This document shows, one piece after another, positions 6,277 through 33,284 of a stretch of DNA of 64,000 nt. Origin of the DNA: Pyrococcus furiosus DSM 3638 (lineage in GTDB: Archaea > Methanobacteriota_B > Thermococci > Thermococcales > Thermococcaceae). The stretch is taken from assembly GCF_000007305.1 (NCBI RefSeq), contig NC_003413.1, positions 1,297,318 to 1,361,317 on the forward strand, written 5' to 3'. The position numbers and the translations under genes were made by a program. Every line of letters starts with the position of its first letter. Positions within the stretch are counted from its first letter, which is position 1. The notes under the pieces are model-generated. The model was not told the DNA's origin. It worked only from the letters and a program-made list of their open reading frames with translations, and did not search any database.

Positions 6277-6423
6277 ACCATTGTGTTTTTGGTTGAGGAT
6301 ATATTTAAACTTTTTCCAAGAAATTAAACAAATTTTCACATACAAATTACTATCTTGTAAATTTTATAATTAGATTTGGAAAATTTACAAAACTAATTCG
6401 ATAAAGATTAAAAAATATCCAAA

Positions 6424-6861
6424 TTATGCTACCTCCACCTGCTCATATGGACTCTTGCCTTTTTTATGCTTCAACAATAAATTGTACATAGCCTCCCTAA
6501 GCGAAGAGGACATATTGTCGTCTAATAGGATATCTGCTCCCTTATAGCTTAACTCCTTTGCCACTTGAACTAAGTTATTTATAATAGGCATTACTTCCGA
6601 AATTATAATTCTCACAAGTGAAGGATAAACTTCCTCTTCGATTTCTTCCTCCGCCTCAATTCCCAAATACACTACATATCCAGAGGTTTGTATTGCTAAG
6701 ATGAACTCATTTTCGGAAACCTCAAATATCGAGAAATTTGAAGAAGTTGAAGAAGTATTAGCAAGTAAGACCCCCTTTATTGATAAGGTAACTACATCTC
6801 CATTAATTTCAAAAAGTAAATCCCTTGCAAATTCTCTTGCAAGAGAGTAAAGCTTAAACAT
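6424..6861 (-). CDS. Unknown protein translationally coupled to RqcH
   Basis: A 145-residue acidic protein (EAEEEIEEEVYPSL near residues 73-86) with no recognised domain, signal or membrane segment. Its ATG (6861-6859) shares one base with the stop codon of rqcH in a TAATG arrangement, so its translation depends on ribosomes finishing rqcH. That coupling suggests a role with RqcH or the 50S subunit, which is inference. The N-terminal 70 residues have the alternating pattern of a small beta-sheet domain. The 3' side has 147 bp of AT-rich spacer before the next gene. Confidence 0.7.
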   Translation of the reverse strand: MFKLYSLAREFARDLLFEINGDVVTLSIKGVLLANTSSTSSNFSIFEVSENEFILAIQTSGYVVYLGIEAEEEIEEEVYPSLVRIIISEVMPIINNLVQVAKELSYKGADILLDDNMSSSLREAMYNLLLKHKKGKSPYEQVEVA

Positions 6862-8810
6862 TATTCAACCACCTCCTCAATCTCTCCATGTCCTGGGGGC
6901 AAAACGCTCATTATATCTTCTTCAGAGACCCTATATCCCCATTTTTCAAATATTTTTTGGATTTTCTTTACAAGGTCACTCTTCTTTAATCCTCCAGGCC
7001 TTATCACTACATACTTGTTTGTATGAGCTTTTACCGCATCAACTGGACCACACATGACAAGCTCTTCCCCCTCAACATTAACTATTCCAACCGCAAGTTT
7101 AAGAGGGATCCCATGAATCCAATTTCTCTTCCCATACACCATAAAGGCTCCTTTGGGTAGGTATTCTCCAGCAGGGGCTTGTTTGCTAACTTGCTCTGGG
7201 TAAACCCAGTAAGCATCTGCCGAAGCTAATCCCTCGCTCCATGCTCTACTCATGGCAACGGCAAATTGACAAGCTTCTCTGATCGTTTTTTCACTGGCAT
7301 TTCTACCATTTTTTATAATAACATGAGGAGCCCCCCATATGTCTGCGTGACAATAGATGTCATTTTCATCCATATGCTTTTTAACAACGATTTCATTCGT
7401 TGTAGCATCCTTCCCTCCGATGACCAGAAAACCTTCGCTGCTAATAAACCACCTAAATTTTTCAAACCACTTTTTCTTTTTGCGGGTGATTTTCTTTATG
7501 TTGATTTCTTTACTCTCTCGCTCTATCTCTTTTTCAAGCTCTATTAATTTTCTTTTAGTTTCCTCATATGCTATTTTTGCTCCTTCCAGTTTCTTCTTTG
7601 CTTTTTTCGCCCTCTCATAGTAAAGCTCAGCATTTTCTTCTAGTGATTTTTCAACATCGAGAGAAACTTTTATCCCATCCAAATTGAGCGTTACTTTGTT
7701 GTCGGTTACGTCGATTATCATTTTTGCCCAAGGGTAGCCAGCTTTCTTTCCTTCTTCTATCCTCTTTTTAACTTCTTCAACTCCATATTGCTTTAATGCT
7801 GAGGAAATAACTCTTAAGATTTCATTTACAATGGAATAGTGGGCATAGAGCGCGTCACCCTTTTCCTGATTAGTCATGGCTTCTTTTTCAAATCCTTTTA
7901 TCTGTTCTTCAATTCTCCTTAAAGAAATTTCAAGAGCCTTTCTCCTTTCTTCTAGTTGCTTGGTTTTTTCGAGTCTTGCTTTTTCAATTGTTAGCTTTCC
8001 AAAGTATTCATCCAAAGCTTCGCTAAAAGATTCATAATATCTTTTTGTATATTCCCGATACCATTGTAGATCTATTGGAACGACATCCACCATAACCCCT
8101 TCTTTGTTATATACAATGTTAGGCTTTTTTTCATCGTTTAGAACTGTTAGAAGAGTATCATATACGAGTCTTAATTCTTCTTCACTTAGTTCATCAACCT
8201 TTCTATCTTTATCTATTTTTGCTCTAAGGAGAGTCTCTTCAGAATATAAGCCTCCAATGCTAAAATTTTTCGCAAGCGCTCTCACGATTTCAGTTCCCTG
8301 GGAGTTCAATATTATCTCTTTGAACTCTTCAAAGCTAACTTTTAGGGGGTTAGCTCTAGAAGGGGGAAAAACGTACTTAATTTTTGGTTTTATTGCCCTA
8401 TCTTTAAACTCTTCATATCTAAGAGCCCCAATTATTTCCCAATCTTTAGTTACAAATATAATATTCCCCCTACCAAAAAGTTCGGCGATGAGGAAATATT
8501 CACCAAACGACAAGATAACTACCCTATCGAATTCGTATTGCCTTATATCCTCAAGAAATTTTCCAGACAAATATTTTCGTAAAAGCATCGCGAATGAAGT
8601 TGGCTGTAGATTCTCCTTAACGTAAGTAGTTATGTGGATTCTCTTTCCAGCCTCAATTAACAAATCTACCCTTCCTACTCCCGTCTTGTGAAGTTTAAAC
8701 CTAATTTCATTACCTTCATGATAAATTTTCTCAACCCTCGAACCCACTATCATGTCTTTTAGTTCCTCGGTTATGTATTTTATATCCACACTGCTCATGC
8801 TTTCTTTCAT
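6861..8810 (-). CDS. rqcH: RqcH/NEMF-family ribosome quality control protein
   Basis: RqcH binds stalled 50S-peptidyl-tRNA complexes and recruits tRNA-Ala to add C-terminal alanine tails. The 649-residue protein has the family order: NFACT-N domain (about 1-220) with the diagnostic Asp-Arg pair D95-R96 (YEFDRVV), long coiled coils (about 270-345 and 390-440), and the NFACT-R domain from about 447 (KWFEKFRWFISSEGF) including IYCHADIWGAPHVIIKNG. Archaeal members lack the eukaryotic NFACT-C domain, as here. Its stop overlaps the start of an unknown 145-residue protein. An ATG five codons in (MSSVDIKY) is an alternative start. Confidence 0.92.
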   Translation of the reverse strand: MKESMSSVDIKYITEELKDMIVGSRVEKIYHEGNEIRFKLHKTGVGRVDLLIEAGKRIHITTYVKENLQPTSFAMLLRKYLSGKFLEDIRQYEFDRVVILSFGEYFLIAELFGRGNIIFVTKDWEIIGALRYEEFKDRAIKPKIKYVFPPSRANPLKVSFEEFKEIILNSQGTEIVRALAKNFSIGGLYSEETLLRAKIDKDRKVDELSEEELRLVYDTLLTVLNDEKKPNIVYNKEGVMVDVVPIDLQWYREYTKRYYESFSEALDEYFGKLTIEKARLEKTKQLEERRKALEISLRRIEEQIKGFEKEAMTNQEKGDALYAHYSIVNEILRVISSALKQYGVEEVKKRIEEGKKAGYPWAKMIIDVTDNKVTLNLDGIKVSLDVEKSLEENAELYYERAKKAKKKLEGAKIAYEETKRKLIELEKEIERESKEINIKKITRKKKKWFEKFRWFISSEGFLVIGGKDATTNEIVVKKHMDENDIYCHADIWGAPHVIIKNGRNASEKTIREACQFAVAMSRAWSEGLASADAYWVYPEQVSKQAPAGEYLPKGAFMVYGKRNWIHGIPLKLAVGIVNVEGEELVMCGPVDAVKAHTNKYVVIRPGGLKKSDLVKKIQKIFEKWGYRVSEEDIMSVLPPGHGEIEEVVE

Positions 8811-8950
8811 AAATACCCCCCCTAAGGTTAGTTTTGCAATTTTATAAAGATGGGGTGGTTATTTACATCTCTTACCCAGGACTTACAGTTTTCTATATTT
8901 TATATACATAAAGCATTTTTTAGTAAACAAAGCTAAGATATAGGCAAAAT

Positions 8951-8960
8951 CGTTAAATAC
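8951..8960 (+). promoter_or_regulatory. Probable TATA box of the GH57 gene
   Basis: The CGTTAAATAC element lies about 38 bp before the ATG at 8994, which would place transcription start some 10 bp upstream of the codon. The 183-bp divergent spacer also carries AT-rich stretches for the rqcH promoter on the other strand. No operator repeat stood out. Confidence 0.4.
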
Positions 8961-8993
8961 TCTCTTCATAAATCTTTTCATAGGGAATTAGCC

Positions 8994-10892
8994 ATGAGAG
9001 GATACTTAACTTTTGTCTTACACTCCCATATACCTTATGTAAGAAAGCACGGAAAGTGGCCCTTTGGGGAAGAGTGGGTTTTTGAGGCTATTGCAGAAAC
9101 ATACATTCCTCTACTTATGGAGTTTGAAAAGTTGCGCAACAAAGGTGTAAACTTCAAACTCGTTATAAGCTTCTCTCCAGTGCTATTGGAGCAACTAAAC
9201 GACGAATACATGAAAAAAGAGTTCGAAAAGTATATCACTAGAAAATTAGAGCTTATGAAAGAAGATCTTACAAAATACACGAACGATCAATTGAAAAAAG
9301 CAATAGCCTACATGATAACATACTTTGAAGATGTTTATAGGTATTGGAAGGAAATTAATGGCGACATTATAGGAAAATTTAGAGAATTCCAAGAAGCAGG
9401 TTACCTTGAAATAATAACATCAGCTGCAACTCATGGATACCTCCCACTTTTGGGAAGGGATGAAGCTATCGAAGGTCAAATTGCAAATGCGATAAAGACT
9501 TACGAAAAGTATTTCCAGAGAAGGCCCAGAGGAATGTGGTTACCCGAGTGTGCATACAGGCCTGATGGATACTGGAGAAGCCCGAGTACAGGAGAGGTAG
9601 TTTGGAGGAAGGGAATTGAGCACTTCCTTAAGAAGTATGGGATAGACTACTTTTTCGTGGAGAGTCATCTAATTGACGAAGGACCAGCTACTTCCAAGTA
9701 CGGGGAGATTTTACCCGAAAAAACCAAGAAGTCGACGCTAAGACCCTACTTCCTTAAAAATGGAATTGCCGTTTTTGCAAGAAATAGAGAAACGGGGATT
9801 CAAGTGTGGAGCGCAGACATAGGGTACCCAGGAGACTTCTGGTATAGAGAATTCCACAAGAAGGCCGAGAAAAGTGGAGGACAGTATTGGAGGGTTACAT
9901 CTAAGGAGATTGACCTTGGAGGAAAAGAGCCCTATGTGCCAGAAAAGGCCATGGAAAGAGTTGAAGAACATGCAAGGCACTTTATATCATTGGTATCCTC
10001 CCTTCTAGAAGAATTCAAGAAAAAAGAAGGAGAATATGGAATAGTAGTTGCTCCCTATGATACCGAACTATTTGGACACTGGTGGTTCGAGGGGGTTAAG
10101 TGGTTAGGAAAAGTTTTGGAGCTTGCCGAGAAGCTAGGAATTAAGACTACGACAATATCCGAATTTCTAGACAACTTCGATGGTAAAAGGTATGAAATAG
10201 AGCTACCTGAAGGCTCCTGGGGAATGTTCGGAACTCACTATACATGGTGGAACCCAGAAGTTGAGTGGACATGGCCAATAATCCACTTGGCGGAAGATAG
10301 AATGGTGGCATTAGCTAGCAAATACCTTGGAAGAGACGAGCTAACAGATAGGACATTGGATCAGCTTGGCAGAGAGCTTCTTCTTATTGAATCAAGTGAC
10401 TGGCAGTTCTTAATAACAACAAAGCAGGCAAAGAAATATGCCAAAAAGAGGATTCTCGAGCACGCCCACATTTTCCACAGGCTTGCAAATTCCCTGGAAG
10501 TGTATGTAAAAACTGGGGAATTTCCGGAGATGGAACTTCTCGAAGAAGCAGAAGATAAAGACAATGTCTTCCATCCAATAGTTATAGAGCCATATGTTAG
10601 TGAAGTTCCGCCTGAAGTTCCAGAATACATTGAGCCTCCCCAGATTCCCAAAGAGGAAGAAGATAAAGAGAGAGGAAAATTTTCAAGTGGCCAGAGCATG
10701 GGCAGAGACTTCGAAGAATTTTTGCTCTCCATAAAGGGAATTGGTCCAAAGACCATAGAAAAGCTCAAGAAGGTAGGTATAACGAAGCCTGAAGACTTCC
10801 TTAATTGGAAGATAGAGGAGCTTGCCAAAAAAGCAAGAGTTCCAAAAAAGAGATTAGAAAGGATCTATAGGAGATTAAGAGCTCTTCTTTAG
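8994..10892 (+). CDS. GH57 1,4-alpha-glucan branching enzyme with C-terminal HhH domain
   Basis: It forms alpha-1,6 branches in alpha-glucans (glycogen). The 632-residue protein opens with the GH57 signature TFVLHSHIPYVRKHG. The nucleophile is E185 in MWLPECAY and the acid/base D356 in APYDTELFGHWWFEG; both sit two residues after the characterised Thermococcus kodakarensis TK1436 branching-enzyme residues E183 and D354. The catalytic domain ends near 530. A Pro/Glu-rich linker (VSEVPPEVPEYIEPP) then leads to a helix-hairpin-helix domain at about 575-632 (SIKGIGPKTIEKLKKVGI). It tail-overlaps serA by 18 bp. The gene was long listed as an amylase in related genomes; branching activity is assigned by these residues. 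Confidence 0.88.
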   Translation: MRGYLTFVLHSHIPYVRKHGKWPFGEEWVFEAIAETYIPLLMEFEKLRNKGVNFKLVISFSPVLLEQLNDEYMKKEFEKYITRKLELMKEDLTKYTNDQLKKAIAYMITYFEDVYRYWKEINGDIIGKFREFQEAGYLEIITSAATHGYLPLLGRDEAIEGQIANAIKTYEKYFQRRPRGMWLPECAYRPDGYWRSPSTGEVVWRKGIEHFLKKYGIDYFFVESHLIDEGPATSKYGEILPEKTKKSTLRPYFLKNGIAVFARNRETGIQVWSADIGYPGDFWYREFHKKAEKSGGQYWRVTSKEIDLGGKEPYVPEKAMERVEEHARHFISLVSSLLEEFKKKEGEYGIVVAPYDTELFGHWWFEGVKWLGKVLELAEKLGIKTTTISEFLDNFDGKRYEIELPEGSWGMFGTHYTWWNPEVEWTWPIIHLAEDRMVALASKYLGRDELTDRTLDQLGRELLLIESSDWQFLITTKQAKKYAKKRILEHAHIFHRLANSLEVYVKTGEFPEMELLEEAEDKDNVFHPIVIEPYVSEVPPEVPEYIEPPQIPKEEEDKERGKFSSGQSMGRDFEEFLLSIKGIGPKTIEKLKKVGITKPEDFLNWKIEELAKKARVPKKRLERIYRRLRALL

Positions 10893-25389: not shown

Positions 25390-27507
25390 ATGAAGAAAGG
25401 ACTGTTAGCAATTTTGCTTGTTGGAGTCATGGTATTGGGAACTTTTGGAAGTGGATGTATTGGAGGAGGAACCCAAACTCAGACCCAAACACCCACAGAA
25501 ACTGGAAGCCCAACCCAAACAACCACTCCTAGCGGAGTAACCCAAGCAATTTTGGAGCTCGGAAAAGTTACAGTTGTCGATACTGGAACAGCTATCGTTG
25601 TAGTTGGTCCCAAAGGTGAAAAACCAAGCGTTTCAATTCCATCTGGAAAGAAGGTAATTACCGTAACTTATGTGGTGGATGAGCAAAACACTCCAAGCGT
25701 TAAAGAGTTAATGGAGCAAGGTCAGGGATTTGGTGCAATAAACCCAGCATTCTTTAGGGATACAAACGTTGATGCTCTTGTAATAGCTGCCAGAAGAGAG
25801 ACTAATCCGGAAGTAAGAACTGAAATATTCAAGGCTCTCTATATCCTGGGCAACTATTATGTCCCAGAAGTCATACTTGGACAGAACAGGCAACTCCGTG
25901 TCTACTGGGACTGGGTTAAGGGAAGATATTACCACCCGACACTCCCAGAGAGATATGATCTTCTCTGGGAAGACCCCAACGCTCCGGTAGTTGATACAGG
26001 AATTGGAAGCTATAAGAACGACCCAGAAACCTATGTAATAGCTACCATTGGATGGCCCGAAAGCTTTGACCCAGCTTGGACATATGAAACATTTGGATGG
26101 GAGATCTGGCACGAGATTGGAGACACCTTAGTCACTTACTGGAAAGAAGAGACTGAGCAAGTTACCCCCGACTTGGCAGTTGCATGGGCCCACAACAAAG
26201 AGGGCACCGAGTGGTACTTCGTTATAAGGGGAGGAGTTAAGGCTTATGATCCATGGAATGACAAGACTTATCCAATAGATGCAACTGATGTTGTATTCAC
26301 CTTCTGGCGTGTTGCTAGGTTAGGGCACTCAGTTAGTTGGATGGTTACAGAATTCATGAATGTCTCAGCTTCCCAGGCACTCACTGAGGAAGAATTCAAC
26401 AACTACGTTAAGAACAACCCACTTATAGCAGAGTACAATGGAAAGACTGCAGAAATTAAGTCTCTACAAGACTTACTCAACTTCTTCGGATACAACGGTG
26501 AAACTGCCGGAGTATTCAAGCTTGTCCTTCCACACCCATACGCTGCAGTATTAAACATAGTGGCAGATCCATTCCTAAGCGTAGTTCCAATGGAGTACTT
26601 GTTAGGAGACAAGTATGAAGAAGCACTCAAGGCAAGCAACTATGGTAAGAACCCAGACGCTTGGGAGGCTTATGTGCAAGAAGGAGTCGACGATCCAACT
26701 CACCAGTTAATGCACAAGTACCCAGTTGGTACTGGACCATTCTATGTTAAGGAGTACCAAGAGAACTCCTACATAGTCCTTGAATACAATCCATACTATT
26801 GGAATGCAACAAGCAACCCAGGACACAAGAGAGTTATCTACATCATAAACAACGATGCTGTTGCCAGAGTACAACTCTTAACCACTGGAACAGCTGACGT
26901 AGCAGCAATACCAACGGACAAAATTGAAGACGTCCAAGGAGTAACGAAGGATGGATATAAAGTGGTAGTGCAGACCGACATACTCTTGCCAGTTCTAACG
27001 TTCATAGTATTCAACACCCAGAAAGAACCCTTCAACGACGTAAAAGTCAGACAGGCCCTAGCATATGCAATTCCATATGATCAAATAGCAAAAGTAGTTT
27101 ACAACAACCTCCTCGAGAGGAACTGGGGACCAATTCCAAAGCCATGGCCTGGATATACCGAGTACGGAATCATCAAGTACGAATACAACATTGCTAAAGC
27201 CAAGCAAATGTTACAAGAAGCAGGAGTTGATCCAAGTAAGTATTCAATAACCCTCATCTACAACGCTGGTAACACCCAGCGTGAGAAGGTGATGACTCTA
27301 ATCCAAAACGTGTGGAGCCAGCTTGGATTTAGAGTGACAGTTGAATCTTATGAATGGCCAGTTTACCTCTCCAAGACAGAACATGGAGACTACGACGTTT
27401 ACATAGTAGGTTGGGTACCAGACTACCTTGACTCCGACAATTGGGTAGGCCCATTCCTCTATGGAGCTACAGAGTTCTCTGAAATAAACATTGAAGTTTC
27501 TGGATGA
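25390..27507 (+). CDS. Oligopeptide ABC transporter binding lipoprotein with permuted domain order
   Basis: Extracellular solute-binding protein of family 5 (DppA/OppA-like). The 705-residue precursor has a lipoprotein signal (LLVGVMVLGTFGSGC, lipobox Cys at 23) and a Thr/Gln/Pro linker to about 50. The usual N-terminal strand appears only at about 213 (TYVIATIGWPESFDPAW). The usual C-terminal tail sits before it at about 118-195: NVDALVIAARRETNPEVRTEIFKAL, YVPEVIL, VYWDWVKGRYYHP. The protein then ends at GWVPDYLDSDNWVGPFLYGAT plus about 12 residues, exactly where ordinary members continue into that tail. The arrangement reads as a circular permutation. The gene heads an ABC operon; specificity for peptides versus sugars is not known. 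Confidence 0.85.
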   Translation: MKKGLLAILLVGVMVLGTFGSGCIGGGTQTQTQTPTETGSPTQTTTPSGVTQAILELGKVTVVDTGTAIVVVGPKGEKPSVSIPSGKKVITVTYVVDEQNTPSVKELMEQGQGFGAINPAFFRDTNVDALVIAARRETNPEVRTEIFKALYILGNYYVPEVILGQNRQLRVYWDWVKGRYYHPTLPERYDLLWEDPNAPVVDTGIGSYKNDPETYVIATIGWPESFDPAWTYETFGWEIWHEIGDTLVTYWKEETEQVTPDLAVAWAHNKEGTEWYFVIRGGVKAYDPWNDKTYPIDATDVVFTFWRVARLGHSVSWMVTEFMNVSASQALTEEEFNNYVKNNPLIAEYNGKTAEIKSLQDLLNFFGYNGETAGVFKLVLPHPYAAVLNIVADPFLSVVPMEYLLGDKYEEALKASNYGKNPDAWEAYVQEGVDDPTHQLMHKYPVGTGPFYVKEYQENSYIVLEYNPYYWNATSNPGHKRVIYIINNDAVARVQLLTTGTADVAAIPTDKIEDVQGVTKDGYKVVVQTDILLPVLTFIVFNTQKEPFNDVKVRQALAYAIPYDQIAKVVYNNLLERNWGPIPKPWPGYTEYGIIKYEYNIAKAKQMLQEAGVDPSKYSITLIYNAGNTQREKVMTLIQNVWSQLGFRVTVESYEWPVYLSKTEHGDYDVYIVGWVPDYLDSDNWVGPFLYGATEFSEINIEVSG

Positions 27508-27625: not shown

Positions 27626-28624
27626 ATGGCGAACCTCAAGAAATTCTTAATTAGGAGGCTACTAACTTTTATTCCAACAATAATAGGAGTTACAATAATA
27701 GTATTTCTAATAGCATATAAAATACCAGCAGATCCAGCCAAGGCATGGGCAGGAGGAGAGAAAGCAACTCAAGCTGCAATTGAAAGGATAATAAGAGAAT
27801 ATCACCTAGACAAGCCTTGGTATGATCAGTATATCTTTTTAATGAAAGGACTACTTACAAATACAATTATCGACCCCAGAACGTCAAACCCTGTTATGTA
27901 TGACGTTGGAAAAAGATTTCCAGTAACTTTTCAGTTGGCAATAATAGCGTTTGTCTTCATTCTTCTCGTAGGAATTCCACTAGGAATAATCTCTGCCCTT
28001 AAAAGGAATACATGGATAGACACAGTGGTAAGAATATTTGCCCTCCTGGGTGTTTCAACTCCAGCATTTTGGCTAGGATACCTAATGCTGTACGTCTTCT
28101 TTGTGAAATACAGAATTACCACAATAGCAGGTGTCCCACCATTTCCACCAAAGATTACGGGAGTTCCCATGATAGATGCTTTACTAAGGGGCGATTTTGC
28201 ACTGTTTAAGCAACACTTAGCAAGATTCTGGCTCCCAGGCTTCACTCTTGGCTTCCTGGGAATGGGAGTAACAGCTAGATTCGTGAGAAATAGTTTCCTT
28301 GAGGCACTTAGCTCAGACTTTGTTCAGTTTTTGAAGGCCAAAGGAGTACCAAAGCTTAGGCTTTATAGGCACGCCCTAAAGAATGCATTAGTTCCGATAG
28401 TTACTGTGCTCGGCCTCCAATTCGGTGGACTTCTTGGAGGAACACCAATTACTGAGACTGTGTTTGGGCTCCCAGGAATGGGTAGTTATGCGGTACAATC
28501 CATTCAAAACTTAGACTTCCCAGTCGTGGTAGCTATAACTTTCATATACGCTATAATCTACGTGGTAACTAACCTCGTCGTTGATATACTCTATGCTATA
28601 ATAGATCCAAGGGTTAGATACTGA
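27626..28624 (+). CDS. dppB: Peptide ABC transporter permease (DppB/OppB type)
   Basis: Integral membrane subunit of the transporter, 332 residues. It starts with the family's first transmembrane helix (FLIRRLLTFIPTIIGVTIIVFLI). It continues with the long periplasmic-side loop and five further helices, and has the EAA loop that contacts the ATPase (RFVRNSFLEALSSDFVQFLKAKGVPKLRLYRHALKNAL region, about 220-255). It ends with VTNLVVDILYAIIDPRVRY, a very conserved tail. ATG at 27626 follows GGAGGGACATAG. The partner permease follows after 11 bp. Confidence 0.92.
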   Translation: MANLKKFLIRRLLTFIPTIIGVTIIVFLIAYKIPADPAKAWAGGEKATQAAIERIIREYHLDKPWYDQYIFLMKGLLTNTIIDPRTSNPVMYDVGKRFPVTFQLAIIAFVFILLVGIPLGIISALKRNTWIDTVVRIFALLGVSTPAFWLGYLMLYVFFVKYRITTIAGVPPFPPKITGVPMIDALLRGDFALFKQHLARFWLPGFTLGFLGMGVTARFVRNSFLEALSSDFVQFLKAKGVPKLRLYRHALKNALVPIVTVLGLQFGGLLGGTPITETVFGLPGMGSYAVQSIQNLDFPVVVAITFIYAIIYVVTNLVVDILYAIIDPRVRY

Positions 28625-28635
28625 GGTGATTTCAA

Positions 28636-29787
28636 ATGCAGGAAGAGTATAAGAAGTCTATACTTGACAAACTTGCCGATAAATTCGTTTATGGTCTTGG
28701 AAAGTTCATAAGTTTATTTAAAAAAGGCTGGATGGAAAAAAACAGGTCAAAGCTTGAAGAATGGAGATTAATGCTTTATGCCTTAAACAGGTCACCTCCA
28801 GCATTAATAGGACTGTTTCTTGTAATGATTTTTATCTTCCTGGGAATCTTTGGACCGTATCTAGCTCCTTGGAAGTACAACTTCATGCCAACATTATATA
28901 CAAGCAACTATGACCAAGTTTATCTCGTACCCCCTGGGAGTAAAGCGGTGCTAGAGTACTATAATAACGCAGTAATAACTTATCCGTTAGGCTCCGATCA
29001 TTATGGAAGAGATCTATTAAGTTTGATCCTACAAGGAGCAAGGACGAGCTTTGTAATTTCAATAATAGTTATTATCTTGGGAGTCCCCCTGGGAATAATT
29101 TTGGGACTAATTGCAGGATATTACGGAGGAAAGATAGACGAACTAATAATGCGTATAACTGACATGTTCCTGTCTTTTCCAGCGTTAATCTTGGCAATAG
29201 CACTTTCGGCAGTATTACCTGAGAGACTACAAGAGTTTATCTCAGCACATCCTATTCTAGAGAAAATAGTGCTGGCAATCTTTGCTCTAGACCAGAGAGA
29301 AGCAGGGAACCTTGGAAGGTTGCTTGCTGTTATAGTGGCAATGATTATAGTATGGTGGCCAGGATACGCAAGAATCACTAGAGGTTCAACGTTGGCTGAG
29401 AGAGAAAAATTATATATCGAAGCTGCTAGAGCAATTGGCCTTCCAACAAGAACTATACTCTTCAAGCACATCCTGCCAAACATCATTGGGCCAATATTAG
29501 TGTACATAACCCTAGATTTCGGTAGCGTAGTTTTAATGGAAGCTGGACTAAGCTTCCTGGGACTCGGTGCAACACCACCAATTGCAGACTGGGGAAGAAT
29601 AGTATACGATGGAGCCCAGTACTTCCCAAGGTGCTGGTGGCTAGTGTTTTACCCAGGATTGGTAGTTCTCTTAACAGCGCTTGGATGGAACTTACTTGGT
29701 GATGGCCTAAGAGATATCCTGGATCCAAAGACCAGAAGAAGCATAGAGTTCAAGGTAAAGAAGAAGGAGGGTGAGAAAAGTGCCTGA
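28636..29787 (+). CDS. dppC: Peptide ABC transporter permease (DppC/OppC type)
   Basis: Second membrane subunit, 383 residues, longer than usual because of an N-terminal cytoplasmic extension of about 60 residues and a large external insert (about 80-115) before the HYGRDLLSLILQGARTS signature. The EAA loop is present (GSTLAEREKLYIEAARAIGL), and the protein ends with the DPKTRRSIEFK tail normal for DppC. ATG at 28636 follows GAGGTGATTTCAA. It overlaps the ATPase gene start by 8 bp. Confidence 0.92.
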   Translation: MQEEYKKSILDKLADKFVYGLGKFISLFKKGWMEKNRSKLEEWRLMLYALNRSPPALIGLFLVMIFIFLGIFGPYLAPWKYNFMPTLYTSNYDQVYLVPPGSKAVLEYYNNAVITYPLGSDHYGRDLLSLILQGARTSFVISIIVIILGVPLGIILGLIAGYYGGKIDELIMRITDMFLSFPALILAIALSAVLPERLQEFISAHPILEKIVLAIFALDQREAGNLGRLLAVIVAMIIVWWPGYARITRGSTLAEREKLYIEAARAIGLPTRTILFKHILPNIIGPILVYITLDFGSVVLMEAGLSFLGLGATPPIADWGRIVYDGAQYFPRCWWLVFYPGLVVLLTALGWNLLGDGLRDILDPKTRRSIEFKVKKKEGEKSA

Positions 29788-30760
29788 GCCCATCCTCCAA
29801 GTTAGAAATCTAACTGTTCACTTTTATACTTACGCTGGAATAGTTAAAGCCATAGAAAAAGTGTCTTTCGACGTGTACAAAGGAGAGACTTTCGCCTTGG
29901 TTGGAGAAACGGGGTGTGGAAAGAGCGTAACCTCAAGGGCCCTAACTCAACTAATAGAGAGCCCAGGTAGAATAGTTGAAGGTCAAGTTCTATATTACAG
30001 AGATGACGGAAGTGTCGTGGATTTACTAAAGCTAAGCGAAGAAGAGATAAGAAAGATTAGAGGAAACGAAATAGCCTACATATTCCAAGATCCTCATGCT
30101 TCACTTGACCCACTATACACTGTTGGACACCAAATTGCCGAAGCAATGGAAGTACATGGGAAAATCTCGAATATAAAAGAGGGAATTCAAAAGGCAATCC
30201 AAATCCTAAAATCCGTTCTAATACCAGATCCAGAGAGAAGAGTCAAGAATTATCCGCACGAACTCTCAGGTGGAATGAAGCAGAGAGTTGTCATAGGGAT
30301 AGGTGTCTCTAACAATCCAAGAATCTTGATAGCCGATGAGCCAACTACTGCTTTGGACGTGACTGTTCAGGCACAAATTTTGGAGTTACTAGATAAGATG
30401 AAGAGAGAGTACAATGCTACAATAATTCTAATTACCCACAACCTGGGAGTTGTTGCAGAGACGGCTGATAGAGTTGCAGTTATGTATGCAGGAAAAATCG
30501 TTGAAATTGGAAGTGTGGACCAGATATTCAAGAATCCTCTTCATCCCTACACTCAAGGATTATTGAAAGCAGTTCCAAACCCAATGACAAAAATAGAGAA
30601 GTTAGAAGCAATTCCTGGAACAGTTCCAAACCTCATTAATCCACCAAGCGGCTGTAGATTCCACCCAAGATGTCCAAAGGCCATGGAGGTTTGTAAGCAG
30701 AAAGTGCCTGAGCTTAAAGAAATCGAGCCAGGGCATTTTGTTGCATGCCACTTATATTGA
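29780..30760 (+). CDS. dppD: Peptide ABC transporter ATPase (DppD/OppD type)
   Basis: Cytoplasmic ATPase, about 326 residues, energising peptide uptake. It has Walker A GETGCGKSV, Q-loop AYIFQDPH, signature ELSGGMKQRVVIG, Walker B RILIADEPTTALD and the switch His in LITHNLG. The C-terminal oligopeptide domain carries the conserved cysteines (SGCRFHPRCPKAMEVCKQ). The GTG at 29780 is preferred since GGAGGGTGAG lies just upstream; a GTG at 29771 falls inside that site. Confidence 0.92.
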   Translation: MPEPILQVRNLTVHFYTYAGIVKAIEKVSFDVYKGETFALVGETGCGKSVTSRALTQLIESPGRIVEGQVLYYRDDGSVVDLLKLSEEEIRKIRGNEIAYIFQDPHASLDPLYTVGHQIAEAMEVHGKISNIKEGIQKAIQILKSVLIPDPERRVKNYPHELSGGMKQRVVIGIGVSNNPRILIADEPTTALDVTVQAQILELLDKMKREYNATIILITHNLGVVAETADRVAVMYAGKIVEIGSVDQIFKNPLHPYTQGLLKAVPNPMTKIEKLEAIPGTVPNLINPPSGCRFHPRCPKAMEVCKQKVPELKEIEPGHFVACHLY

Positions 30761-30770
30761 GGTGATTCTT

Positions 30771-31760
30771 ATGGAATATGACAGAGACGTTGTGCTGAAG
30801 GTTGAAAACCTCAAAAAGTACTTTCCAGTGAGGGGACTTATAAGGACAATTGGATGGGTCAAAGCTGTAGATGGCGTTAGCTTCGAGATAAGGAGAGGAG
30901 AAACCTTCGGACTAGTAGGGGAGAGTGGGTGTGGAAAGACTACAACAGGTAGAACAATCTTAAGGCTCATCGAGCCTACAGATGGGAAAATCATATTCAT
31001 GGGCAAAGATGTAACTAAGCTTAAAGGTGAAGAACTTAAATGGTTCAGGAGGAAGGCCCAAATAATGTTCCAAGATCCTTATTCTTCATTAAATCCTAGG
31101 CAGACCGTATTTGAGATAATTATGGAACCTGTGAAGTTCCACGGCATTCAGGTGGACGATCCTGAGGAGTTTGTCATTAAACTGTTAGAAAGTGTAGGAC
31201 TTAATGAGACCCACTTATACAGATATCCTCATGAATTTTCCGGAGGTCAAAGACAAAGAATCGCCTTAGCTAGAATACTTGCTTTAAGGCCAGAGTTCAT
31301 AGTTCTAGATGAGCCTACCTCAGCATTAGATGTTTCAGTTCAAGCGAACATCTTGAACATGCTCAAAGACCTGCAGAAGGAATATGGATTCACATACCTC
31401 TTCATAAGTCACGACTTAGGTGTAGTGAAGTACATGAGCAATAGAATAGGAGTTATGTACTTGGGTAAGCTAGTGGAAGTAGGCCCTGCTGATAAACTCT
31501 TTGAAAATCCACTGCATCCATACACCCAAATGCTCTTTTCAGCAATTCCGATTCCAGATCCAGATATAGCTAGAGAAATGAAGAAAAAGAGGATGAAAGT
31601 AACAGGAGAACCACCAAGCCCAATAAATCCACCAAGCGGCTGTAGGTTCCACCCAAGATGTCCATACTTTAAGGCAGGAGTATGTGATAAGAAAGAGCCT
31701 CCTATGGTGGAAGTCGAGAAGGATCACTACGTTGCTTGTTGGCTATATGCAAAAGCTTAA
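30771..31760 (+). CDS. dppF: Peptide ABC transporter ATPase (DppF/OppF type)
   Basis: Second ATPase of the heterodimer, 329 residues. Walker A GESGCGKTT, Q-loop IMFQDPYSS, signature EFSGGQRQRIAL, Walker B FIVLDEPTSALDVS and switch FISHDLG are all present, so both ATP sites should be active. The C-terminal domain again has SGCRFHPRCPYF and a further Cys. ATG at 30771 follows GAGGTGATTCTT. It is the last gene of the transporter operon; the downstream TTAAATTTTCATTTTCTTAA tract may terminate transcription. Confidence 0.92.
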   Translation: MEYDRDVVLKVENLKKYFPVRGLIRTIGWVKAVDGVSFEIRRGETFGLVGESGCGKTTTGRTILRLIEPTDGKIIFMGKDVTKLKGEELKWFRRKAQIMFQDPYSSLNPRQTVFEIIMEPVKFHGIQVDDPEEFVIKLLESVGLNETHLYRYPHEFSGGQRQRIALARILALRPEFIVLDEPTSALDVSVQANILNMLKDLQKEYGFTYLFISHDLGVVKYMSNRIGVMYLGKLVEVGPADKLFENPLHPYTQMLFSAIPIPDPDIAREMKKKRMKVTGEPPSPINPPSGCRFHPRCPYFKAGVCDKKEPPMVEVEKDHYVACWLYAKA

Positions 31761-31784
31761 ATTTTCATTTTCTTAATTTTGTTT

Positions 31785-32174
31785 ATGGTGAGAAGAAAGG
31801 CTATTAAAGCTTTGGATCTTGCATTTGACATCGTTACTGGCATATTAGTAATTCTTGCAATAGTACTTTTAGGAGTCAGTATAATAAATGGTTTCAAATA
31901 CTTATTTGCTGGAAATCTGGAAGGAAGTCTTGAAGAATTTTTAATGGCACTAATCCTCTTAGAAATGTACGAGTTGCTCTCCCTATATCTGAAAGAGCAC
32001 CATGTAAGTATGAGGAGGGTTGCTGAGCTTGGGATCGTGGCAATAATTAGAAAAATCGTCATATCAACTAAAGACACGGAAAAAGCCGATCCACTTGTCT
32101 TATTTGCCTTTGCACTAATGATCTTAGCTCTCGGATGGATATACACTAGGTTGGAAACTATAGAAAAAGATTAA
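31785..32174 (+). CDS. PsiE-like small membrane protein
   Basis: A 129-residue protein with about four hydrophobic segments (about 14-35, 52-72, 105-122 strongest). It resembles the PsiE (phosphate-starvation-inducible) family, with LEMYELLSLYLKEHHVSMRRVAELGIVAIIRKIV as the most conserved-looking part. Function of PsiE proteins is unknown. The ATG at 31785 has no good ribosome site; GTG at 31788 is an alternative. It lies 24 bp after dppF on the same strand but need not be part of the transporter. Confidence 0.65.
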   Translation: MVRRKAIKALDLAFDIVTGILVILAIVLLGVSIINGFKYLFAGNLEGSLEEFLMALILLEMYELLSLYLKEHHVSMRRVAELGIVAIIRKIVISTKDTEKADPLVLFAFALMILALGWIYTRLETIEKD

Positions 32175-32261: not shown

Positions 32262-33284
32262 ATGGGTGTCCCAATTGGTGAGATTATACCAAGAAAAGAA
32301 ATTGAGTTAGAAAACCTATACGGGAAAAAAATCGCAATCGACGCTCTTAATGCAATCTACCAATTTTTGTCCACAATAAGACAGAAAGATGGAACTCCAC
32401 TTATGGATTCAAAGGGTAGAATAACCTCCCACCTAAGCGGGCTCTTTTACAGGACAATAAACCTAATGGAGGCTGGAATAAAACCTGTGTATGTTTTTGA
32501 TGGAGAACCTCCAGAATTCAAAAAGAAAGAGCTCGAAAAAAGAAGAGAAGCGAGAGAGGAAGCTGAAGAAAAGTGGAGAGAAGCACTTGAAAAAGGAGAG
32601 ATAGAGGAAGCAAGAAAATATGCCCAAAGAGCAACCAGGGTAAATGAAATGCTCATCGAGGATGCAAAAAAACTCTTAGAGCTTATGGGAATTCCTATAG
32701 TTCAAGCACCTAGCGAGGGAGAGGCCCAAGCTGCATATATGGCCGCAAAGGGGAGCGTGTATGCATCGGCTAGTCAAGATTACGATTCCCTACTTTTTGG
32801 AGCTCCAAGACTTGTTAGAAACTTAACAATAACAGGAAAAAGAAAGTTGCCTGGGAAAAATGTCTACGTCGAGATAAAGCCCGAGTTGATAATTTTGGAG
32901 GAAGTACTCAAGGAATTAAAGCTAACAAGAGAAAAGCTCATTGAACTAGCAATCCTCGTTGGAACAGACTACAACCCAGGAGGAATAAAGGGCATAGGCC
33001 TTAAAAAAGCTTTAGAGATTGTTAGACACTCAAAAGATCCGCTAGCAAAGTTCCAAAAGCAAAGCGATGTGGATTTATATGCAATAAAAGAGTTCTTCCT
33101 AAACCCACCAGTCACAGATAACTACAATTTAGTGTGGAGAGATCCCGACGAAGAGGGAATACTAAAGTTCTTATGTGACGAGCATGACTTTAGTGAGGAA
33201 AGAGTAAAGAATGGATTAGAGAGGCTTAAGAAGGCAATCAAAAGTGGAAAACAATCAACCCTTGAAAGTTGGTTCAAGAGATAA
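32262..33284 (+). CDS. fen: Flap endonuclease 1
   Basis: FEN-1 removes 5' flaps during Okazaki fragment maturation and base excision repair. The 340-residue protein matches the structurally known P. furiosus enzyme. N-terminal GVPIGEI, metal-binding residues D27, D80, E152, E154, D173 and D175, the helical clamp (about 85-130), and the H3TH motif [18 protein letters not shown] are all present. The C-terminus ends in the PCNA-binding PIP box QSTLESWF (331-338). ATG at 32262 follows GAGGTGATAGT. It tail-overlaps trm5b by 11 bp. A C/D sRNA occupies its 5' leader. Confidence 0.97.

Follow-up and report, generated by a model that had tools for sequence, protein, structure and literature searches.

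Organization of the Locus

The window, i.e., the whole stretch of 64,000 nucleotides from the genome of Pyrococcus furiosus DSM 3638 analyzed in this study, contains an intact gene for a predicted solute-binding lipoprotein, followed by four Dpp/Opp-like transporter genes. The features of this locus, in window coordinates, were as follows.

25390..27507, + strand, permuted family-5 solute-binding lipoprotein, DppA/OppA-like, 705 amino acid residues (intact open reading frame)
25390..25458, + strand, signal peptide and lipobox GSG/C, Cys23 (sequence)
25459..25539, + strand, Thr/Gln-rich linker, residues 24–50 (sequence)
25540..25740, + strand, second part of the connector, residues 51–117 (joined without a break to the C-terminal connector part where the cut is of type B or C)
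25741..25974, + strand, canonical C-terminal tail, residues 118–195, here near the N-terminus (profile comparison, doubled profile)
25975..26025, + strand, new tail-to-head junction, residues 196–212 (sequence)
26026..27468, + strand, canonical head and middle, residues 213–693, with SBP_bac_5 at 257–693 (Pfam, head profile)
26809..26823, + strand, loop opened by cut type B in relatives, residues 474–478, uncut in the window
26956..26958, + strand, window residue 523, at which relative L006 is cut (type C), intact in the window
27469..27507, + strand, first part of the connector and stop codon, cut type A (comparison of row ends)
27626..28624, + strand, DppB/OppB-like permease (BPD_transp_1)
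28636..29787, + strand, DppC/OppC-like permease (BPD_transp_1, OppC_N)
29771..30760, + strand, DppD/OppD-like ATPase (ABC_tran, oligo_HPY)
30738..31760, + strand, DppF/OppF-like ATPase, start codon uncertain (ABC_tran, oligo_HPY)

Between the transporter genes and a FEN-1 gene at 32262, which matches PDB entry 1b43 over its full length, lies what we take to be a gene for a small PsiE-like membrane protein (31779–32174). The first 32 residues of the window protein were the same as those printed for P. furiosus PF1408, whose N-terminus is given as MKKGLLAILLVGVMVLGTFGSG/CIGGGTQTQT in Table 3 of PMC3824201. That paper reports 30 unique peptides of the PF1408 product, at 52% coverage, from mass spectrometry of the culture supernatant and argues that it is a lipoprotein (PMC3824201). 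Every cut type included relatives with low-complexity linkers like that of the window protein, although some rows had none.

Similar to the window, loci L001, L005, G006, G007, G078 and G090 as well as the edge of L006 had Dpp/Opp-like genes downstream of the receptor gene, and so did the Thermoproteota loci L177 and L279. No match to the dpp genes of the window was found in the ~3 kb downstream of L278 (G322, cut A'), whose receptor may work with a transporter encoded elsewhere. In L279 (G465), stretches similar to Dpp ATPases occurred on both sides of the cut-B receptor gene (~671–2637 and from 5471 onward), as if there were two adjacent transporter operons.

Order of Segments in the Window Protein

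The Pfam model SBP_bac_5 (PF00496) matched residues 257–693 of the window protein with an E-value of 4.8e-71. As only 12 residues follow residue 693 in this protein of 705 residues, it has no normal C-terminal tail, in agreement with the initial annotation. That annotation had also placed the canonical tail near residues 118–195, before the canonical start, and profile comparison bore this out. The tail profile from 97 family rows aligned in hhalign to columns 467–546 of a 568-column canonical profile with a probability of 97.7 and an E-value of 2.1e-12, and the head profile aligned to columns 60–151 of the same profile. The canonical profile was built from 58 canonical-order proteins, i.e., those of the 71 loci L009–L079 that had a usable open frame and a match.

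The order of segments was called with a doubled (circular) profile whose period is 653 positions. With this profile, the tail followed the middle domain in 32 of the 58 canonical proteins and preceded it in none; in the other 26, the tail had no match at the threshold used. In the window protein, the order was connector, tail, head, middle and end, making one turn, and head, middle and tail were each present once, as judged from both the doubled profile and hhalign. Compared with the period of 653, the aligned spans were 659 for the window protein, 654 for L005, 655 for L006, 652 for L182 and 650 for L187. The identities between the window protein and canonical-order relatives were ~31–37% over the aligned stretches; thus, its own first permutation can no longer be traced step by step.

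The single-sequence comparison of the tail was weak (−1.7 bits in phmmer), and Pfam and NCBIfam searches of the window protein left the displaced tail unsignaled. The window protein scored 126.3 bits with the NCBIfam model DppA_dipep (NF043070) and did not reach its curated cut-off of 1005 bits. Rotating the protein into canonical order as a means of raising its NCBIfam and PDB scores had hardly any effect (126.3 to 126.8 bits for the DppA model), probably because an insert of ~70 residues, the connector, precedes the tail. At the level of sequence, the window protein is shown to be a circular permutation of the family-5 fold: its original termini are joined to each other, and its present ones fall within the connector that precedes the tail. 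According to the initial annotation, the present termini would come to lie in the middle of the large lobe. Its predicted signal peptide, lipid anchor and linker are likewise shown to remain at the front.

Cut Types and Their Distribution

The window order is shown to be one of several rotations of the same gene. Five cut sites, designated A, A', B, C and D, were found in one family from Thermococcales, Thermoproteota and one Thermoplasmatota contig. In all five, the tail was joined to the head, and the anchor was N-terminal wherever the locus reached the N-terminus. As read from the sequences, the connector has a helix-like stretch that is preceded by cut A and followed by cut A', and cut D comes after the next strand-like stretch. 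Cut B lies in the loop at window residues 474–478 and cut C at residue 523. L265 was treated as D-like from its ends, and L178 and L179, which lack the helix-like stretch separating A from A', were assigned to A' by their place in the tree. In types B and C, Pfam split SBP_bac_5 into two stretches, of which the better one was at the front of the protein and matched the back of the profile (residues 61–275 of L005 to positions 149–365; residues 54–235 of L006 to positions 177–364).

Among 94 Thermococcales genomes searched, 64 held the family: 56 had cut A, the cut of the window protein, three had cut B (G002, G006 and G007) and five had broken or partial copies (G019, G033, G068, G082 and G094). 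The three B copies were 87–89% identical in protein and differed by ~0.11, 0.05 and 0.48 at first, second and third codon positions, respectively, a pattern that purifying selection would produce. No further family members came up when the whole phylum of G001 was searched (115 genomes; query residues 57–330, E ≤ 1e-14). In Thermoproteota, 39 of 398 genomes held the family, with 10 cases of cut A', 21 of cut B, 8 of cut D and one partial copy (G481) that ends like cut B; G249 had two family loci. The family was found in one of 292 Thermoplasmatota genomes (G003, cut C). The searches of Thermoproteota and Thermoplasmatota were centered on G003 and G004, which were already known, and the tallies of Thermococcales and Thermoproteota were made by hand from the search matches. 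No second genome with cut C was found, the order of G003 consisting of one genome, and five matches in another order of Thermoproteota (45 genomes) revealed no new cut type. None of the 97 family rows combined the N-terminal region of the window protein with a normal tail.

By eye, 7 of the 23 B rows carried "KP" at both ends. Indel-rich loops clearly predicted the cut site for cut B only, which was in the top 2% of positions; cut C ranked in the top 13%, the cut of the L269 family (see below) in the top 21%, D in the top 29% and that of L209 in the top 30%.

Two further observations concern gene copies in Thermococcales. G012, which belongs to the clade of the window, had two cut-A copies that are ~40 kb apart and not in tandem (C1:1818134-1820275, and one across contig ends at 1860542-1861318 and 2-1363). 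In three other genomes, the binding-protein gene was split or interrupted by stops (L140 of G019, L169 of G033 and L168 of G082), suggesting that the gene can be lost.

Phylogeny of the Rotations

The tree was built from 53 rows rotated to one frame, two of which were canonical; near-identical rows had been dropped. L266 was left off for its aligned length, and L008, L140, L167, L267 and other partial copies were not included. On this tree, the six states (canonical, A, A', B, C and D) needed at least six changes, compared with five if each had arisen once; thus, at least one cut arose more than once. When A, A' and D were lumped, ~5 changes were counted by eye on the same 53-row tree. Adding the three other lineages described below brings the number of rotations to about eight or nine.

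The three Thermococcales B rows (support 100/100) were nested inside the Thermococcales A rows (8 rows, 100/100). Constraining all B rows to group together was rejected (AU p = 6.8e-6), and so was constraining all A rows (AU p = 3.2e-5). Within Thermococcales we lean toward a change from A to B; repeated changes from B to A are possible. The C-terminus of the Thermococcales B proteins (..KEYGYKP) resembles that of Thermoproteota B proteins and was found in none of the Thermococcales A rows compared. In L006, the corresponding loop (..KELGYD..) is uncut, so such a loop also exists in uncut form. Whichever the direction, this is a rotation within the order Thermococcales. Judging by the tree and by those loci that carry names (L001, L002 and L005), the A and B relatives belong to a single genus, apparently Thermococcus.

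Rotation in Place

Rotated-order relatives were found at orthologous loci in G007/G090, L005/L001 and G365/G295. G007 (cut B) and G090 (cut A) were collinear for ~5 kb ending with the signal peptide and linker, were swapped within the gene (7031–7706 = 7662–8337, then 7752–9002 = 6400–7650) and were collinear again past it, across the dppBCDF-like genes and beyond. The same swap within collinear flanks was seen between L005 and L001 and between G006 and G090. In the comparison of permuted G365 with canonical G295, both flanks were collinear and the two pieces met at one alignment base. The unaligned bases at the cut numbered 11 in G090 vs. G007 and 14 in L296 vs. L209. L209 had only the upstream flank in common with its canonical sister, the downstream flank being not conserved. 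Rotation happened in place in Thermococcales and in another archaeon. Profile comparison, relatives and gene-level collinearity all uphold the circular permutation that the initial annotation had proposed.

Permuted Proteins in Other Archaeal Subfamilies

Three further permuted archaeal lineages were found outside the family: L268, L209 and the L269 family. L268 (G365) was rotated relative to four canonical-order sisters with amino acid identities of 70–78% and a fifth with 56%, and L209 (G690) relative to canonical sisters that were up to 88% identical. At the DNA level, the identities of both to their canonical sisters were ~71–80%. In L268, the cut is flanked by a Tyr on either side. Cut C, L209 and L268 are each known from one contig.

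In G690 (L256, reverse complement 6966–8714), the recently permuted L209 is followed on its strand by a MATE-like gene and no transporter gene, and upstream lies a divergent operon for peptide transport that includes a binding protein of its own. The L269 family was permuted in all three genomes that hold it, of 12 genomes in its order, and has a CARDB domain between anchor and receptor. In L280, L281 and L282, a domain (CARDB by Pfam in L280) lies between the membrane anchor and the permuted receptor; it is perhaps a spacer replacing the flexible linker. Similar short stretches also occur at three separate tail-to-head junctions, i.e., EDPNAP at residues 196–212 of the window protein, KDPNAT in L209 and KAPDAK in L268.

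Comparison With Known Systems

DppA/OppA-type solute-binding proteins are labeled cluster C. Similar to these proteins (PF00496), the window protein has the same middle domain, adjoining transporter genes, the plan of an anchored receptor and the canonical segments once each. Different from them, it is rotated, possesses an extra connector of ~70 residues between middle and tail and has its new ends inside this connector.

TpMglB-2 (Tp0684) of Treponema pallidum is a permuted sugar-binding lipoprotein that is reported to bind glucose and to change shape on binding (PMC4990184). Similar to the window protein, it is an anchored solute-binding protein that was circularly permuted in nature and is encoded beside transporter genes; it has a Type I/cluster B fold and one permuted topology, and its permuted part is 13% identical to the counterpart (PMC4990184). 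The present family, in contrast, is of the peptide type (family 5), is archaeal and has several cut types as well as in-place rotations that are visible in DNA. By sequence matches, the window protein is not of Type Ic/Cluster Bc, as its best matches were PF00496 and HbpA/DppA chains. The initial annotation knew of no described case of such a protein. This holds for family 5 among the open-licence papers listed in searches on circular permutation but not for lipoproteins of other clusters, TpMglB-2 having been published (PMC4990184).

Saposin/swaposin and the DNA methyltransferases are also natural circular permutations but not anchored receptors, and for the methyltransferases a review cites documented duplication intermediates (PMC3320104). 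Among the papers listed in searches of the open-licence literature on circular permutation, neither a permuted family-5 receptor nor a repeatedly rotated solute-binding protein was found. We know of no locus of the saposin or methyltransferase type with several cut points among close relatives and with collinear flanks.

Origin and Function of the Rotated Receptors

We consider it probable (about 0.7) that the gene encodes the receptor of a Dpp/Opp-type peptide importer that was permuted by tandem duplication in place and trimming, and that the tether point is of little weight. The mature part would have been duplicated in tandem at its own locus, and subsequent loss of one 5' part and one 3' part would have left a single turn. 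The product would most likely be an ordinary anchored receptor that binds peptides between two lobes and docks on the permeases. With a flexible linker, the attachment point of the folded part would matter little; for this reason, rotations that preserve the fold would be tolerated and recurrent. Duplication and trimming in place would explain both the kept flanks and the small shared pieces at both ends. Against this explanation, the linkers of some permuted proteins are short (~10 residues in L209; also short in L204 and L198), the L269 family has its CARDB domain where the linker would be, and L278 is without nearby dpp genes. Moreover, no partly duplicated intermediate was found in the 97 family rows, the largest span being 666 compared with the period of 653. 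As the start and end of the rotated genes coincide almost exactly, the duplication route then needs selection against leftovers.

As intermediates were lacking and the ends matched so closely, the rotations may instead have taken a single-step route, in which a circular DNA copy of the mature part, or a reverse-transcribed circular RNA, was opened anew and reinserted at its own locus. Ends that meet at one base in G365/G295, or with 11 and 14 bases between them in G090/G007 and L296/L209, would fit such a step, and the upstream flanks were kept in all three comparisons. We nevertheless regard it as improbable: no machinery for it is known, the small repeats shared by the two ends agree with duplication, the edges of alignments are accurate only to within a few bases, permuted genes have short unaligned ends of their own and the downstream flank of L209 is not conserved. 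Fission and fusion, in which two half genes are joined in different orders, is with duplication one of the two classical models described in a review (PMC3320104). The gene of G019, which lies in two adjacent frames (window residues 3–416 and 464–704), might look like such a pair of halves, but we read it as broken, and other split copies have stops or sit at contig ends (G033, G082 and G068). Given that the permuted genes retain the same anchor, linker and upstream flank, we find this model quite improbable. A chimera that gained a tail-like fragment at the front and lost its true tail, without rotation, is very improbable; it would suit the weak single-sequence similarity between the window tail and canonical tails, but types B and C keep the tail-head join with the cut elsewhere, always in one turn, and L268 and L209 are rotated at 71–80% DNA identity to canonical sisters. 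The chance of an assembly or annotation artefact is next to negligible, although type C, L209 and L268 each come from a single contig. Type A was found in 56 Thermococcales genomes and type B in 21 Thermoproteota and 3 Thermococcales genomes, one of the latter on a 1.86 Mb contig, and peptides of PF1408 have been observed by mass spectrometry (PMC3824201).

The tether point would carry more weight if the rotations were adaptive, i.e., if they moved the tether to another face of the receptor and thereby altered the way in which the cleft faces the transporter or S-layer, or the surface exposed to viruses and vesicles. The initial annotation had likewise suggested that the unusual anchor site may reorient the cleft over the membrane or S-layer. 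Few cut sites are used, and at least one of them recurs, since a single clade was rejected both for the A rows (AU p = 3.2e-5) and for the B rows (AU p = 6.8e-6). A tethering idea was raised by the authors of the TpMglB-2 work (PMC4990184). In addition, OppA is described as the major protein of Thermococcus membranes and vesicles (PMC6524685) and as the putative receptor of a Sulfolobus virus (PMC10117752), though these OppA proteins may not be of this family. However, long flexible linkers should uncouple the tether point, and cut-A and cut-B orthologues precede the same dppBCDF-like genes. Adaptive re-anchoring appears unlikely to us. That the mature receptor in archaea is a circle re-opened in place in one step, through circular DNA or RNA, with the opening selected for the face hung on the membrane, is a long shot.

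Implications

Usually, circular permutations are inferred from distant relatives, at a time when the event itself is long past. In the present case, orthologues of close relatives, apparently within Thermococcus, differ by rotation inside collinear blocks of >10 kb, and canonical and permuted sisters occur at ~71–80% DNA identity in other archaea. With these close-relative rotations and sister pairs, the permutation route and the importance of the tether point are directly testable. These proteins are also a warning that canonical-order models can miss or misjudge parts of permuted proteins. The family is a natural laboratory for protein rearrangement.
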